DNA from: Actinobacteria bacterium HGW-Actinobacteria-6
GTDB lineage: Bacteria > Actinomycetota > Coriobacteriia > Anaerosomatales > Anaerosomataceae
Reading direction: 5' to 3'
Assembly (NCBI GenBank): GCA_002841295.1
Contig: PHEU01000010.1
Span: 1-64,000 of the forward strand
DNA length: 64,000 nucleotides
Under the pieces are notes generated by a model. That model was not told the origin of the DNA and searched no databases. It saw only the letters and a program-made list of their open reading frames with translations. Below are positions 26,862 through 45,590 of the stretch, piece by piece; position 1 is the stretch's first letter; each line of letters begins with the position of its first letter. A program made the translations under genes and the position numbers.

Positions 26862-26940
26862 CTATCTTCCTGATGAACGGAAGAACTCGCAGGTGGGTAT
26901 CGCCGTTCGTCAGTTGGGGTGTCGCGAGACCGTCGTTTCG

Positions 26941-27014: not shown

Positions 27015-28088
27015 ATGAGAAAGCCGGCCTCACCGGCCCGTCTCCTGAAGACCCCATATCTCATCCTCGTACTCATCGCAGCTCTCGTCGTACCAGTATC
27101 AGCATCCGGATTTGCCTGGGCCAGGAAGGGCGTCACCGTCATCGTCGATGGCGGGACTGCTTACTATAGAACGCAAGCTGACACCGTGGCCGATGTACTC
27201 GCCGAGGCGGGCATCGAAGTCGCGGTTCACGATGTGGTGAGCCCTGCTCCCAGCGTCGCTGTCGATGACGGCTCGATGATCGTGGTCCGGCATGCGATTC
27301 CTGTCAGGATCGATTGTAACGGCGAGATTCTGGATCTTGATGTCATCGGAACCACGGTCGCCGACGCACTCGTGGCAGCGGGACTCGACCCCTCACTTGG
27401 CTTGGATGTGGAGCCTGCGGTGGAGGCACCGCTTCGCTCGGATATGACCATCGTCGCCAAGGACGTCTTCTTGCGCATCGCGCAGAAGGAAGTCGACGTC
27501 CCGTTCAACATCATCGAGAAGTCCGACGCCTCGATGGAGATCGGTCAGCGCAAGGTCGTCTCGAACGGCAAGCCCGGTCGGGCGATGCGCGTATATGAGA
27601 TCGTCGTCACCGGTGGCATCGAAGGTGCCCGATACGTGAAGGCCGAAGAAGTTCTCGACGAGCCGGTCCCGCAAGTCGTCGCCGTTGGCACGAAGCGGGT
27701 GTCTAAGCGCATCACGGTCGTTTCGACTATCAGGGGTGGCGCCAAGAAGTCCGTGTCGCCGCCCACCAGTGGCCAGAAGATGACGGTAGTCGCTACTGCA
27801 TACACCCCGTGGGACGCCGGTTGTGGTGGACTCTCGGTTATCGAACGCAAGCTACGCGCCTATAACGTGCCGGATGGTTGGGGCATCATCGCTGTAGACC
27901 CCAAGGTGATCCCGCTTGGCTCCAAGGTCTACGTGTCGGGCTATGGCAACGCGATAGCGGCCGATACGGGTGGCGCCATCGATGGCAATCGCATCGACGT
28001 GTGCTTCTGGTCCGGCGGCGAGTCTGTGGCACGCAAGACAGCCATCAACTGGGGACGTCGTACCGTCACCATCACCATCATCAAGTAG
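27015..28088 (+). CDS. yabE: YabE-like exported protein: DUF348 repeats, G5 and 3D domains
   Basis: About 357 residues. The ATG at 27015 follows GGAAGGG and gives a signal anchor (LILVLIAALVVPVSA). Two DUF348 repeats occupy about residues 35-80 and 90-140 (each with DTVADVLAEAGIEV or TTVADALVAAGLD). A G5 domain spans about 185-265 and the 3D domain, named for its three Asp, spans 275-357 (AVDPKVIPLGSKVYV, ADTGGAIDGNRIDVCF). 3D domains are lytic-transglycosylase-like, so this is probably a peptidoglycan-remodelling enzyme resembling YabE and actinobacterial Rpf. It occupies the yabE position in the Bacillus-like cluster and has its own promoter. Confidence 0.9.
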   Translation: MRKPASPARLLKTPYLILVLIAALVVPVSASGFAWARKGVTVIVDGGTAYYRTQADTVADVLAEAGIEVAVHDVVSPAPSVAVDDGSMIVVRHAIPVRIDCNGEILDLDVIGTTVADALVAAGLDPSLGLDVEPAVEAPLRSDMTIVAKDVFLRIAQKEVDVPFNIIEKSDASMEIGQRKVVSNGKPGRAMRVYEIVVTGGIEGARYVKAEEVLDEPVPQVVAVGTKRVSKRITVVSTIRGGAKKSVSPPTSGQKMTVVATAYTPWDAGCGGLSVIERKLRAYNVPDGWGIIAVDPKVIPLGSKVYVSGYGNAIAADTGGAIDGNRIDVCFWSGGESVARKTAINWGRRTVTITIIK

Positions 28089-39631: not shown

Positions 39632-39745
39632 CCGCTTGCCGGAGCCCTGCGGTATACTTTCGCTGCGACGACCGGACATCCGGCACTCATCTGCTGACGA
39701 ATGGTCTTATCGTACCGAAACGTGCGGCCGCTGGAAGGGGCGCCA

Positions 39746-40489
39746 ATGGAAGACCCCATCAACGTCCTATGTGTCGATGACGACGTCTCTATCGTTGAGA
39801 TGATCAAGATGGGCCTTGAGGCTGACGGTATGAATGTCAGCTCGGCGGGGGATGGTGCCGAGGCTCTCGAGGTGTTGCAGAACGAGCCTATCGACGTCGT
39901 TCTTCTCGACATCATGATGCCGAGAGTCGATGGCTGGATGGCTCTCATGGAGATCAGGAACAACCCGCTCACGGCGGACATCCCGGTCATCATGCTCACC
40001 GCTAAGACCCAGGATCTTGCGAAGATCCTTGCATTCAAGCAGGGCGTGCAGCAGTACGTCACTAAGCCGTTTAATCTTATGGAGCTCTCCGCACGCGTGC
40101 GAAGCCTCGTTCGCGGCCGACCGCGACCGTTGGCTCCGGGAGTCGGTTCAGAGACCGACTTCAGAAAGTTGGCCGTCCGCAAGGGTGGCCGCACGGTGCT
40201 GCTCAATATCGATGACATCGTGTATATCTCGGCGAAGAACAAGTCTACGTACGTACACACGTACGAGAACCAGTACCTGGTGGACCTGACGCTCACGGAG
40301 CTTGAGGGGAAGCTATCCAGGGAGAACTTCGAGCGCGTTCATCGGTCGTACATGATCAACTTGAACAAGGTGAAAGAGATCTTGCGCGTTGATGGCGCCT
40401 ACGTAGTTGTCGTGACTGATCGTGACGAGACCCAGATTCCAGTCGCTCGCAGGCAGGTTCGCGATTTCAGAGGATCGGTGGGCATCTGA
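39746..40489 (+). CDS. LytTR-type response regulator
   Basis: A 247-residue protein; GGAAGGGG at 39733-39740 selects ATG 39746. The receiver domain (1-120) includes CVDDDVS, phospho-Asp in VVLLDIMMPRVDG, MLTAKT and TKPFNLME. The C-terminal LytTR DNA-binding domain (about 145-245) has IDDIVYISAKNKSTYVHT, NFERVHRSYMINLNKVKEI. No histidine kinase is adjacent. The stop TGA overlaps the ATG of the DUF916-like gene (TGATG), tying it to the surface-protein locus. LytTR proteins bind direct repeats two helical turns apart; the GGCGG pairs at 23-bp period upstream of two surface genes (42703-42730 and 45563-45590) are candidate sites, an inference from geometry only. Confidence 0.88.
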   Translation: MEDPINVLCVDDDVSIVEMIKMGLEADGMNVSSAGDGAEALEVLQNEPIDVVLLDIMMPRVDGWMALMEIRNNPLTADIPVIMLTAKTQDLAKILAFKQGVQQYVTKPFNLMELSARVRSLVRGRPRPLAPGVGSETDFRKLAVRKGGRTVLLNIDDIVYISAKNKSTYVHTYENQYLVDLTLTELEGKLSRENFERVHRSYMINLNKVKEILRVDGAYVVVVTDRDETQIPVARRQVRDFRGSVGI

Positions 40490-41562
40490 TGCAGCGCAGC
40501 GCTCGCAAGCTTTCGCTGCTGTTAGTCCTGCTTGTGCTCGTCGGTCTCATCGCTCCCACGTCGGCAACCGCCGTTCGCACGATCGGGCTGTCGACGGGGA
40601 CGTTTGATTTCTCGGTGGCCGCCGGCAAGGGCGGGACCGGTGAGGTCGTCGTTATGAACAATGGCGACGAGAACCTCTCGGTACTCATCTATGCGGCGAA
40701 CCAGAAGGTGGATGCATCTGGGGCCATAAGCTATGAGGTTCCTAACCGCGATGATCAGGGTGTTCAGTACAACCCCGCGTTATGGCTACAGATCAAGATC
40801 GGGAAGCAGACACAGACAGTCGGGAACACGCCGTACATCGAGCTGACCCCAGGCGAGCAGGTGCCGGTGTCCTTTGAGATGCTGGTTCCGCAGGGCACGC
40901 CTCCCGGTGACCACCAGGTGCTGATCTTCTTTGAGATGCGCAGCGATGCCACGGGCGCTGAGGGTGAGGCCACGCCCCAGGTCAGCGGCCGGGTCGGTGC
41001 CCGCATCTCGGTTCGTGTCGAGGGGGAGATTGTCGAGAAGATCGACGTTCGTCCGTTCGCGACCAGGGGCTTCATCCTCGGCAAGACGCTCCCATACACA
41101 TTCGTGCTCCTGAACGAGGGAAACATCGACAAGCCGTTCAGCGCAAAGCTCACGCTGCTCGATTCCAACCTCGGCGAGGTGCTCTCAAGCAACGTAACAA
41201 CCGATAGCGTCGTCTACGCTGGAACGAACATCGAGTTCTCGGATGTCCTGCGTACGCAGAAGCAGCTCATCGGAAAGTACACGATGCGCCTTGAGATCGA
41301 GTATCCGCGTGAGGGGTCTGACGTCAACATCCCTGAGACGCTGAAGCTCGATAAGACCGTGTGGATCGTGCCGCTGTGGTTAGCGATCGCGGTGGTCGTC
41401 GTCGTCGGCCTGGCGCTGATCTTGGCGAGCTACAAGCAGAGCGTGCACAGCGCCGAGCGCAGGATCGAGAAGAAGCGGCAGGAGAGAGAGGCCCGTCGGA
41501 CGCTAGTCCATAACGAGGCTGATTACTTCCGTGTCGATAGGGATGACAACCTCGGTTCCTGA
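40489..41562 (+). CDS. DUF916-like exported, membrane-anchored surface protein
   Basis: A 357-residue protein. A signal peptide (LLLVLLVLVGLIAPTSATA) leads into a beta-rich ectodomain: TGTFDFSVAAGKGGTGEVVV and NLSVLIYAANQKV, then PQGTPPGDHQVLIFF, resembling DUF916 (the WxL-interacting protein family). A second Ig-like part (FVLLNEGNIDKPFSAKLTLLD) follows. The C-terminus has a membrane helix (PLWLAIAVVVVVGLALILA) and a basic cytoplasmic tail (RRIEKKRQEREARR), so it is anchored with ectodomain outside. In Firmicutes such proteins partner WxL proteins; the neighbouring small protein contains PWRL. The last 60 nt overlap the convergent small exported-protein gene. Confidence 0.72.
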   Translation: MQRSARKLSLLLVLLVLVGLIAPTSATAVRTIGLSTGTFDFSVAAGKGGTGEVVVMNNGDENLSVLIYAANQKVDASGAISYEVPNRDDQGVQYNPALWLQIKIGKQTQTVGNTPYIELTPGEQVPVSFEMLVPQGTPPGDHQVLIFFEMRSDATGAEGEATPQVSGRVGARISVRVEGEIVEKIDVRPFATRGFILGKTLPYTFVLLNEGNIDKPFSAKLTLLDSNLGEVLSSNVTTDSVVYAGTNIEFSDVLRTQKQLIGKYTMRLEIEYPREGSDVNIPETLKLDKTVWIVPLWLAIAVVVVVGLALILASYKQSVHSAERRIEKKRQEREARRTLVHNEADYFRVDRDDNLGS

Positions 41563-41796
41563 TGTCTTCGAACCCATCGTCATGACCTGACCGTCCGCCG
41601 TTTCGGCGATGAGCCGCCACGGGGTGTTGGCCTTCACGAGCACGATGCCGTCGCTGACGACGTTGTACGTCGCCTGACGGGCAACGGTGGCGTGGACCTG
41701 GGTGGTGGCGGTGACGCCGGGCTGCGCTGCAGCCGGCCCTGCGATCATGGTTGCCAGAAGCATCCCGGTCGCTGTGAGTACTAGTATTCGCTTCAT
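41503..41796 (-). CDS. Small exported protein with WxL-like motif
   Basis: A 97-residue protein. The ATG at 41796 follows GGGGGTG; a GTG at 41799 is in frame. The signal peptide is KRILVLTATGMLLATMIAGPAAA. The mature 73 residues are beta-rich with QVHATVARQATYNVVSDGIVLV and NTPWRLIAET, a Trp-x-Leu motif. Its 3' end overlaps the convergent DUF916-like gene by 60 nt, which is unusual in this tightly packed but otherwise little-overlapping window. It may be a minimal surface subunit working with that protein; function unknown. Confidence 0.6.
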   Translation of the reverse strand: MKRILVLTATGMLLATMIAGPAAAQPGVTATTQVHATVARQATYNVVSDGIVLVKANTPWRLIAETADGQVMTMGSKTSGTEVVIPIDTEVISLVMD

Positions 41797-42110
41797 CACC
41801 GTTCACCCCCGCCATAGTGCCTTCTATTTCATTTGTCGGCAGACAAACGGCAAATGATTAGGGAAGAACGGTCGATTTCCGACGAACGGCGGTGCTCATC
41901 GAAATCCTGGCGCGTGTCTGAGACGTGATGATGCACCATTCATCGGCGACGAACGGGCTATTGGCTGCGCACTCAGTGTGATTTGCGAGTGGGCGTCAGC
42001 GGTGTCACGAATGCCAGGCGTGAGGATTCCCACAGGCGCTGAGCTGCGCCTCGCCGGAATCGGTGTGACGCTTTGACGGGTCATCCACCGGCCCAGGCCT
42101 CAGGGAGCGC
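41797..42110. other. Intergenic region upstream of the small exported-protein gene
   Basis: About 310 nt without a credible gene. It contains the inverted repeat TTTGTC-GGCA-GACAAA (41832-41847), near the start of the minus-strand gene, and an exact 10-bp direct repeat CGACGAACGG at 41880-41889 and 41947-41956 (67 bp apart). These are possible regulatory sites for the minus-strand gene. Nothing else recognisable was seen. Confidence 0.45.
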
Positions 42111-42161: not shown

Positions 42162-42560
42162 TTACTGGGCCAGCGTGTAGGTGATGGTGCCAGCGAGTGC
42201 CGTGCCGCCGTCGACGTTCCAGTCGACCATGCCGGTGACGTTGTCGGTGACGCTGATTGCGCCGCCGCGCAGACCGGACTGAGCGACCTCAAGGTCGCAA
42301 CCAAGGGCGGTGAAGTTGCCGACGTTGACAGAGGCGCTGAGGGTTGCGGCCTTGTTCGACTTGCCGGACAGTGCAACGGTGTTGCTGGAGTCGACATCGG
42401 GATCCAGGCTTCCAAGGCTAACCGACGGAGGAGCGGTGAGCTCGAGGATCGTGTTGACGTTCGCATTGACGGCGGTCGACGCGTCCAGTGCGACTGCATA
42501 TGCTACGAGGCCGAACACGAGCGCCATGACCGTGATAGCTATCAGGATCGTTCTCTTCAT
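42162..42560 (-). CDS. Small exported beta-rich surface protein
   Basis: A 132-residue protein. AAGAAGGAG before the ATG at 42560 and MKRTILIAITVMALVFGLVAY give a good signal peptide; the frame remains open 45 nt upstream but lacks a signal. The mature part has SVSLGSLDPDVDSSNTVALSGKSN and VTGMVDWNVDGG, ending AGTITYTLAQ. The same plan occurs in the last 95 residues of the large protein at 42741-45431 (DFGAVDPGV, then VPWSTDPG, AQIVYTVVTH), so this looks like a stand-alone copy of that terminal domain. Upstream it shares a bipartite control module with the large gene. Function unknown; pilus- or coat-like subunit is possible. Confidence 0.7.
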   Translation of the reverse strand: MKRTILIAITVMALVFGLVAYAVALDASTAVNANVNTILELTAPPSVSLGSLDPDVDSSNTVALSGKSNKAATLSASVNVGNFTALGCDLEVAQSGLRGGAISVTDNVTGMVDWNVDGGTALAGTITYTLAQ

Positions 42561-42635: not shown

Positions 42636-42730
42636 TATCTCATATCGGGCTGCGCATCACCCCGATAAAGGGCCGCCTGCCGTACGGCGGAATAGTGTGA
42701 CAGGCGGCACATGAGTGGGACGAGTGGCGG
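42636..42730 (-). promoter_or_regulatory. Bipartite upstream module, copy A
   Basis: On the minus strand: a 35-nt block (42730-42696) with two CCGCC units at 23-bp period and ending TCACA, then 46 nt, then CCCGATATGAGATA (42649-42636), 76 nt before the ATG at 42560. Copy B upstream of the large surface gene matches 26 of 35 positions in the first block and 12 of 14 in the second with identical spacing. Part of block 2 also pairs in a TATCGGG/CCCGATA hairpin (42643-42667), seen only in this copy. Confidence 0.6.
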
Positions 42731-42740
42731 CTGATAGTCA

Positions 42741-45431
42741 TCAGTGCGTCACCACGGTATAGACGATTTGAGCCTGGTACGCGCCTGGATCGGTGCTCCA
42801 GGGGACGTCGATGCTGACGACGTCGGAGTAGTTCCTGGTTCCGCCGTCGATTCCGAACAGATTCGCGAAGGTGCTGCTGAGTCCGATCTCGCTCGCTGCG
42901 CCGCCCAACGTCTTCATAAGGTCGAAGGTCACATTTGACTTCACCTGCACGCCGAGCCCGCTGTGCGAGTACGGAACGCCAGGATCGACGGCGCCGAAAT
43001 CAATCGCGGTTTCGGAGAGAGTAAGCTCCACCCAGGGCGCTCCCGGCACCGCATGGAAGGTCGCTTCTCTCGTGGAGATCAGCATTCCGCCTGAGGTCGT
43101 CCATGCGACGGAGAGCCTGTAGGTGCCGTCGTAGATCAGATTGCGGTTCGTGACGGACCAGGAGTTCGTCGCAAGCCCGTTAGGGGCGCTCACGTTCAAG
43201 CCAGTGACCTGTGAGGAGAACCCTGGGCCTGCGCCGTAAAGTGTCCAGGCGCCGTCGGGGGCGATGTACGCATCTCCGGCGTCGAAGGCACCGTTCGCGT
43301 TCTGGTCCCACCATATGACGTAGGTCGCTTGCGTATTGGCCAGGGCGACGAAGCCGCTGTTCTCGAACGTGGCCGCCACGGTGATGGTGGAATCGACGGT
43401 GTCGCCGCCGGACGCAGACAGTGCAGTCACGGACGCCTTGAATCCCACATAGACGGGCTGGCTCGTTATGACGACCCCGCTGCTATTGAGCAGCGTGACG
43501 GTCCACGTGCCTGTGGGCGCGTTGTTGGCGATGTTGTACGAGGCCTGAGCGATGCCGCCGGTGTCAACGTTGACAGGGTTCGAAGTCGTGCTGACTCCAC
43601 TCGGATTCGTCCAGCGGAACATGACCTGTGAACCGGAGGCCAGGCCCATCCCGCGTGCGTAGACGCGATCGCCGAGGGCGAACGTGTCCTGAGGCGTTCC
43701 GAACCCGCTGATCCCGAACGTGACAAGTGAACTCACGAGAGTGCGGTTTGTGGCCGTGCCAGTGGAGCCAGCGAACGATCCGGTCACCGTTGCGATGTCG
43801 ACGCTCCCGGCCGTGGCCGCCGACGGCACGGTGACCCTCACGACGACAGCGGTTGAACCACCGAACGGAGGCAGCGTCACGGAGGTTATCGGCGTCGAGC
43901 CGTCTTCAGCATACAGACGCGCTGTCCAGCCGAGCGATGAGGCGACCGAGAGGTCGATGGTGCGTGTCTCGGACCAACTGTTGGTGATGGTGTGACGGTA
44001 GATGACCGATGTCCCGGCGCCTGCGGGCGAGGCGTTGTTGGGCGTGATCGTGATGGGCTGGCGTGCGACGGTCGTGTCGTAGCCCTTGCACTTCATGCTC
44101 GGCGAGCCGACCACCTGTGCATCGATGGTGGTTATGTTCTGCGTGCCGATGGCCGTTCCGAGCGGAACCTGGACCTTCACCGTGAGTCCTATGGACGCGC
44201 GCGGCGCGAGCGTTACCTGCGTGATAAGCGACGTGCCTGATGCATCATAGAGATTTGTCGGCCAGCTCTTGTCCGAGGTGGCGACGACGGTGACTGTTCG
44301 TGTCTCGTCAGTGTTGTTCAACACGGTGTTGTTGTACGTGATAGTTCCGCCGGGAGCCATGGTTCCCGAGCGATCCGGGACGACCAGGATCGGACCGACG
44401 GTCGTCAGGTCGGTTGCGGCGCCGACCGCTCCGGCTACGGTCACGTGTGTCGCGGTCAGGGTGAGCGTGTCCTTCACTCCATCTGAAGCATTGGTGGGCA
44501 CGACGAGGGAGACGACGACATCGAGCGACGCTCCGGATGCCAGCGCGAGGGTGTTGATCAGCTGCTGATTGTCGGCCCGGCGAATCTCGGTGGTCCAACC
44601 CTTCGAGGAGTGGGCGACGAGGTTGTAGGTGCTCGCGAGGTTGCCGGTGTTGGTGACGGTATGGGTGTAGGTCACGGTCGTCCCAGCCGGCGTGCCGGTG
44701 CTTCGATTCGGGGTCACACTGACCCCGAATCGGCGGAGCGAGACCATATCCGTGTCGTCATTGGCACTGCCTAGTGCGGAGCCGAACTGCATTGAAATCG
44801 GCGTTCCCGGTGCAACGCCAAGGGCGGCCCACGTGATCCGCCCCTCAAACTGCACGCCTCCGCTTTCGCCAGCACCGTCGATGGCTCCGGCGGGCACGGC
44901 TATCTGGGTCTTCCATGTGCCGACAGGTCTGCCCGTGTTCCCGGGCATCGGATCGCCTGCGGCGACATCGGCCGGCGTGTACGCGTAGAGAGACGCGCCG
45001 CTGTAGGCGTTCCCGCCGCTGAGGCCGTAACTGAGGACGAAGTCCTCGGTTCCGAGCCGACCGTCTCCACCTTTGTCGATGAAGACGAGGTATTCAGGCG
45101 CGCCACCGCCCGTGGCGGACGCCCGTCGGATGTAGTGGTACAGGTAGGTTGAGTCGTACGTCGCAGCCACGACTGCGAGGTCGATGTTCGAGTTGCCCGC
45201 GTCTCCAGTTGGGTCGTAGACACAGTTGGCGGCATCCTCGAATACCGACGCCCAGTCGGTGAATACGCCGTCGACTGAAATGGTCGTACTCACGAGCGCG
45301 CTCGTGGGAACGACGGGGATGAGAAGCGCGACTGCGAGTAAAACGCACAGATACCGAGAGTGGCAGATACTTCGCCCACTCCCGGCTCGCCGGTTCCGCT
45401 TGCGCGGGGTATGCGTCTTGGTCGGTGTCAT
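42741..45431 (-). CDS. Large exported multidomain surface protein
   Basis: About 896 residues. ATG 45431 follows GGAAGCGG; the signal region has a basic MTPTKTHTPRKRNRR start and YLCVLLAVALLIPVV. Residues about 45-240 resemble a DOMON/carbohydrate-binding type domain (VDGVFTDWASVFEDA, VFIDKGGDGRLGTEDFVLSY). Three or more related Ig-like repeats of about 100-125 residues follow (each with a TPNRS/VPDRS/TPNNAS-like opening, TYTHTVTNTG-type strand and GWT or SWPT core), resembling NEW3/CARDB domains. The last 95 residues (DFGAVDPGV to YTVVTH) resemble the small protein at 42162. No LPxTG, CWB2 or membrane anchor is visible, so attachment to partners such as the DUF916-like protein is likely. Confidence 0.75.
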   Translation of the reverse strand: MTPTKTHTPRKRNRRAGSGRSICHSRYLCVLLAVALLIPVVPTSALVSTTISVDGVFTDWASVFEDAANCVYDPTGDAGNSNIDLAVVAATYDSTYLYHYIRRASATGGGAPEYLVFIDKGGDGRLGTEDFVLSYGLSGGNAYSGASLYAYTPADVAAGDPMPGNTGRPVGTWKTQIAVPAGAIDGAGESGGVQFEGRITWAALGVAPGTPISMQFGSALGSANDDTDMVSLRRFGVSVTPNRSTGTPAGTTVTYTHTVTNTGNLASTYNLVAHSSKGWTTEIRRADNQQLINTLALASGASLDVVVSLVVPTNASDGVKDTLTLTATHVTVAGAVGAATDLTTVGPILVVPDRSGTMAPGGTITYNNTVLNNTDETRTVTVVATSDKSWPTNLYDASGTSLITQVTLAPRASIGLTVKVQVPLGTAIGTQNITTIDAQVVGSPSMKCKGYDTTVARQPITITPNNASPAGAGTSVIYRHTITNSWSETRTIDLSVASSLGWTARLYAEDGSTPITSVTLPPFGGSTAVVVRVTVPSAATAGSVDIATVTGSFAGSTGTATNRTLVSSLVTFGISGFGTPQDTFALGDRVYARGMGLASGSQVMFRWTNPSGVSTTSNPVNVDTGGIAQASYNIANNAPTGTWTVTLLNSSGVVITSQPVYVGFKASVTALSASGGDTVDSTITVAATFENSGFVALANTQATYVIWWDQNANGAFDAGDAYIAPDGAWTLYGAGPGFSSQVTGLNVSAPNGLATNSWSVTNRNLIYDGTYRLSVAWTTSGGMLISTREATFHAVPGAPWVELTLSETAIDFGAVDPGVPYSHSGLGVQVKSNVTFDLMKTLGGAASEIGLSSTFANLFGIDGGTRNYSDVVSIDVPWSTDPGAYQAQIVYTVVTH

Positions 45432-45495
45432 ATCCGCTTCCCGGACACTCGGTGGGATGCTTCGCCGTTCGCGAGGGTCCGCCAGGGTGCCACAG

Positions 45496-45590
45496 TATCG
45501 TATATCGGGACATACATGCCCTCTGACCAGCGGTTTCCGCCGTTCGGTTTCAAAATGTGATGGGCGGCACACTAGAGGGCTGAACGGCGG
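45496..45590 (-). promoter_or_regulatory. Bipartite upstream module, copy B
   Basis: On the minus strand: a 35-nt block (45590-45556) with two CCGCC units 23 bp apart ending TCACA, a 46-nt spacer, then CCCGATATACGATA (45509-45496), 65 nt before the ATG at 45431. It corresponds to copy A at 42636-42730. The second block may contain a -10 element (GATACT) and the first an activator or repressor site. Confidence 0.6.

Follow-up and report, generated by a model that had tools for sequence, protein, structure and literature searches.

Two genes for exported surface proteins, A and B, in a 64,000-nucleotide stretch of an Anaerosomatales genome (the window; the genome as a whole is 2.35 Mb, and the labels of its close relatives read Coriobacteriia or Anaerosomatales) are each preceded by the same two-block module. 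Is this repeat a promoter with an activator site, and if so, which regulator and which sigma factor act on it? Genetic work on Anaerosomatales, a lineage widespread in the subsurface, is almost absent, and an answer would provide a testable cis-regulatory code (box, spacing and -10 element) for their surface proteins.

No Pfam family was found for gene A, whose predicted structure has a mean pLDDT of 45; orthologues of both genes occur in many relatives. The C-terminal ~97 residues of gene B (window 42741-43040) match small surface proteins of relatives, which suggests an anchoring or assembly domain shared with those proteins, perhaps serving the WxLIP-like protein encoded at 40489-41562. The WxLIP-like gene overlaps a regulator gene by one base.

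Two surface genes share an upstream module of fixed geometry

Re-alignment of the two copies on the minus strand showed the first block to be identical at 26 of 35 positions and the second at 12 of 14, with 46 nt between the blocks in both copies, exactly as an earlier note on this DNA had stated. Its distances of 65-76 nt to the start codons hold to within one base, the actual values from the end of block 2 being 75 nt for A (start 42560) and 64 nt for B (start 45431). The filler between the blocks had been called diverged, and just 20 of its 46 positions are identical, but it contains a third conserved box, CCGNACGGC. In three 64-kb runs of a first-order Markov simulation with the same dinucleotide make-up, no pair as good was found; the real 64-kb window gave 44 pair positions in the same test, of which those listed at 7-10 kb probably reflect repeats in coding sequence.

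The first block had been described as CCGCC occurring twice at a 23-bp period. Taken literally, this pattern is at chance level in the window and the genome except at A and B, which shows that the register is wrong; it shows boxes 1 and 2 (CCGYTCRTC) out of register, their true period being 20 bp. Alignment of 17 sites resolves three boxes with this period, CCGYTCRTC, CCGYTCGTC and CCGTACGGC, at -79, -59 and -39 relative to the CCGATA of the second block. Box follows box in the same orientation at roughly two turns of the helix (20-bp period in A and B), the arrangement that had been anticipated for a LytTR protein. The A and B boxes of the window are one to two changes off the consensus CCGYTCRTC, exact sites being found in relatives.

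Table 1. Positions of genes, module parts and boxes in the window.
Feature	Position	Strand	Basis or remark
Second, inverted exact LytTR-type box, hydrolase promoter	26872..26880	-	box scan
Exact LytTR-type box before cell-wall hydrolase-like gene (27015-28088)	26903..26911	+	conserved across most of the family
LytTR-type box (1 mismatch), directly downstream of the TATACT of the regulator promoter	39667..39675	-	box scan
Second LytTR-type box (1 mismatch), in front of regulator gene	39696..39704	-	box scan
REC-LytTR response regulator, proposed box binder	39701..40489	+	Pfam Response_reg and LytTR
WxLIP-like membrane-anchored surface protein	40489..41562	+	sub-threshold Pfam WxLIP_PGBD, E 7e-4
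Third small exported-protein gene	41503..41799	-	ORF and profile search
LytTR-type box cluster upstream of third surface gene	41842..41956	-	two exact (41881, 41948), several near
Gene A, small exported surface protein	42162..42560	-	orthologues in relatives
Module A second block, CCGATA = WhiG/flagellar-type -10 candidate	42636..42649	-	fixed relative to box 2, all aligned sites
Module A weak -35-like TTTA	42666..42669	-	16 nt before cCCGATA
Module A box 3 (CCGTACGGC, near-palindromic)	42679..42687	-	39 bp upstream of CCGATA, conserved
Module A block 1	42696-42730	-	aligned to copy B
Module A LytTR-type box 2 (CCGCCTGTC)	42699..42707	-	59 bp upstream of CCGATA, all aligned sites
Module A LytTR-type box 1 (CCACTCGTC)	42719..42727	-	79 bp upstream of CCGATA, 17 aligned sites
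Gene B, 896-aa exported protein, Ig-like domains	42741..45431	-	Pfam FixG_C; MG2 below cut-off; orthologues
Module B second block, CCGATA -10 candidate	45496..45509	-	alignment
Module B -35 position, reads TGGT	45526-45529	-	alignment
Module B box 3 (CCGAACGGC)	45539..45547	-	alignment
Module B block 1	45556-45590	-	aligned to copy A
Module B LytTR-type box 2 (CCGCCCATC)	45559..45567	-	alignment and order-wide pattern
Module B LytTR-type box 1 (CCGTTCAGC)	45579..45587	-	alignment

Copy A also lies after gene B and can fold into a GC-rich hairpin (GCCGCCTG...CAGGCGGC then CCTTTAT), as might be expected of a terminator, a riboswitch or some other RNA element. The outer stem is lost in one relative (G004), however, no hairpin with a T-run of this kind accompanies copy B, which precedes gene B, and an Rfam search returned only sub-threshold matches, none of them on the modules. 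With no Rfam match and an unconserved hairpin, an RNA element was rejected as extremely improbable.

The module is conserved within the order

If the repeat serves transcription of surface genes, it would be expected to recur before such genes elsewhere, and it does so in some 15 further genomes of Anaerosomatales (class Coriobacteriia). A PWM built from five sites (A and B of the window's own genome and of G004, and A of G020) found more surface-gene sites in G016, G002, G006, G003, G023, G028, G009, G014, G013, G008 and others, with CCGAT at the same distance in 24 sites even though the PWM spans box 1 to box 3 and excludes CCGATA. In the LytTR loci, a histogram of box-to-CCGATA distances peaks at 59 bp with 19 exact pairs, where the average distance has 0.5.

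The search of related genomes for the two-block pattern that the earlier note had proposed found blocks and spacing conserved: in a set of 69 genomes from the order, box2-N50-CCGATA matched 25 times (19 times beside the surface genes) and the reversed control not once, which makes the phylogenetic evidence much stronger than the window simulation. Many module sites are orthologous, so these counts are non-independent; what counts as independent is each promoter type (A, B and third gene) and each separate genus. Outside the window's own family the A/B module is rare, the regulator nonetheless being kept.

The boxes match a LytTR site and cluster at a LytTR gene

AlgR is a member of the LytTR family. 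It recognises the box CCGTTCGTC, with the natural variants CCGTTTGTC and CCGTTCATC (PMC4064291). By sequence comparison, the block-1 box is this published AlgR/LytTR core, and the boxes here vary in the same way as the natural AlgR variants.

The locus itself encodes a REC-LytTR response regulator, probably starting at 39752, with a close orthologue (66-98% identity) in 38 of the 41 genomes searched, own included. One genome without the regulator (G018) was disregarded, as the hydrolase gene normally ~12 kb away is also missing there; the whole region may be absent from that assembly. Across 46 loci, exact-consensus boxes are concentrated in two places, with 46 less than 500 bp upstream of the regulator gene (2.0/kb) and 49 at 2-3 kb past the regulator start, which is the zone of the surface-gene promoters (1.8/kb). 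Box density elsewhere is ~0.1/kb, so that both peaks stand ~20x above background, and two control patterns had no peak at either place in these loci.

In 44 of the 46 loci the 190 nt upstream of the regulator contain a box with no more than one mismatch (exact in 28), where base composition would predict one by chance in about a fifth of loci, and these boxes adjoin or directly follow a TATACT-like element. Boxes at a regulator's own gene are the usual sign of autoregulation, and their position at or past TATACT suggests that it is probably negative. LytTR genes often carry an inverted pair, GAYGARCGG-N8-CCGYTCRTC, over or past a TATACT-like -10 (window 39655-39704; relatives' loci).

Among 53 two-box matches from 61 genomes, a 12-nt spacer is over-represented (8 matches), and this is the geometry typical of LytTR proteins. 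The link to the LytTR regulator, first drawn from its presence in the same locus, is thus strengthened by a box that is the AlgR site and by order-wide clustering of boxes at the LytTR gene and the surface promoters. Judged from sequence, the module is very probably the docking site of the neighbouring LytTR-type regulator.

Several other LytTR regulators are encoded per genome, at ~35% identity to the neighbour, and boxes also occur at distant promoters, as they might if a paralogue encoded elsewhere bound them; we consider this unlikely, since it is the gene of the neighbour itself that shows the highest enrichment (44/46 loci). Nor does box 2 appear to belong to a different protein family. 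It is flanked by TGTG/CACA in most A/B-type sites, forming a near-palindrome (T at -61 and A at -50, each in 16/17), and could be read as a CRP/FNR-family dimer site (TGTGNCGNNCGNCACA) that places the module under catabolite or redox control instead of LytTR. Yet these flanks are gone in G005, G026 and G021 while CCGYTCGTC stays, and the 9-mer has no GTG/CAC around it in box 1 or in the promoters of the regulator and the hydrolase. The TGTGA-N6-TCACA palindrome is not conserved throughout, its flanks being missing at several sites, and box density peaks at a LytTR gene. We rejected a CRP-like site for its unconserved flanks and hold it to be very improbable.

The second block resembles a flagellar/WhiG-type -10 element

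CCGATA is the core of GCCGATAA, the flagellar/WhiG-type -10 consensus (PMC8325347), and is invariant in the aligned sites, [GCA]CCGATAY(A), with two flanking positions varying. A FliA/WhiG-family sigma factor, scoring above the curated cut-off of TIGR02479, is encoded in 7 of 7 genomes tested, and the window's genome has such a factor. Matches to TAAA-N-GCCGATA fall at gaps of 15-16 in 57 of 63 cases, mostly as TAAAG, in a count that leaves out G030 (control equal to signal); TAAAG-N15/16-GCCGATA is therefore a real promoter class here.

The modules themselves depart from this class at the -35 position, 16 nt away, which reads TNNA in A-type sites and TGGT or TGGC in B-type sites; T is found at -21 in 14 and A at -18 in 12 of the 17 aligned sites, and a perfect TAAA only in the third-gene promoter of G006. 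We infer that A and B pair a good -10 with a poor -35, as would be expected if an activator replaced the -35 contact. The sigma assignment is less certain than the LytTR assignment because of the poor match of the -35 to TAAA, especially in B (TGGT). This mismatch in B, together with the use of TATAAT/TATACT by the hydrolase and regulator promoters, makes it a distinct possibility, if short of a probability, that CCGATA belongs instead to a sigma-A promoter or is bound by a second regulator, with the LytTR part still standing. The bases past CCGATA do not fit TANNNT, however, and CCGATA does fit the flagellar/WhiG class present in these genomes.

In the window's own genome, a perfect TAAAG-N15-GCCGATA precedes a type IV pilin gene located between pilC and a prepilin peptidase gene (L284:1728-2219, G000:C61).

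A model of the promoters and their closest known counterparts

The earlier reading of the repeat as a promoter with an activator site is supported by box identity, fixed spacing and order-wide recurrence, and our best model, which we regard as likely on present sequence evidence, is that of LytTR-activated, WhiG-type promoters of a surface-protein regulon. From what the sequences contain (box identity, spacing, conservation, regulator co-location and a sigma gene) we infer a course of events that extends to binding, phosphorylation, activation, direction of control, sigma identity and start site. The neighbouring REC-LytTR regulator, most likely when phosphorylated via some kinase, would bind the three boxes, centred at about -88, -68 and -48 of the predicted start, and would recruit polymerase, probably with the WhiG/FliA-type sigma factor, to the good -10 CCGATA despite the poor -35. 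It would also bind its own promoter, at or just past TATACT, and probably repress its own synthesis.

The likeness to the AlgR promoters of Pseudomonas aeruginosa (algD, algC, rhlI) lies in several boxes per promoter, one of them near -45, and in the same 9-bp box with the same variants (PMC4064291). Here, however, three evenly 20-bp-spaced boxes stand close to the promoter, whereas AlgR sites are often distant and irregular, and an AlgR-type LytTR box would be at work in a different phylum and on other targets. AgrA at P2/P3 of Staphylococcus aureus likewise binds direct repeats, centred near -60, as a LytTR dimer at promoters whose -35/-10 elements are suboptimal (PMC4227749), a mode of action predicted here, but its box sequence is different, the present module has three boxes, and the sigma type here is probably another.

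WhiG-type sigma factors occur in unicellular actinobacteria, and in Rubrobacter one controls type IV pili (PMC8325347). Those Rubrobacter promoters, under an RsiG/c-di-GMP switch, share the -10 class and the pilin promoter (PMC8325347), while in the present modules the -35 is degraded and LytTR-type boxes are added. No RsiG motif was found in the 7.5 kb around the sigma gene. With one LytTR regulator and one WhiG/flagellar-type sigma factor, the surface regulon may respond to a two-component signal and to the type IV pilus sigma factor alike, a proposal that we see as evenly poised, perhaps with c-di-GMP input through that factor. The first cultured Anaerosomatales members are non-motile and bear pili-like appendages (PMC9686372); if the sigma assignment is true, LytTR activation would be tied to a flagellar-class sigma where cultured members do not swim.

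A literature search on LytTR and Coriobacteriia found no earlier description, the only overlap being a survey of membrane regulators. LytTR regulons are a known kind; this member, its triple 20-bp layout and the WhiG-type pairing appear to be undescribed.

Boxes at other promoters

The box cluster before the third surface gene (Table 1) has related promoters in G006, G016, G020 and G023. The box before the hydrolase gene (27015-28088), whose product is 3D-domain-like, is exact in 17 of 29 relatives, essentially the window's own family; among genera its distance to the -10 takes one of two values, ~61 or ~52 bp, which differ by nearly one helical turn. A genome-wide scan with the two-box pattern at 2 mismatches rose only modestly above control and included coding matches, and was dropped as a regulon list.

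Two or three CCGTTCGTC-like boxes, 20-21 bp apart, precede a GATACA-type -10 at a gene for a conserved ~110-aa protein located elsewhere in the genome (VYDLEGVLG...; G003, G004, G018). A further cluster with boxes in both orientations, probably intergenic, is conserved in three genomes (G000:C1:29015, G004:C21:377827, G003:C1:354299).
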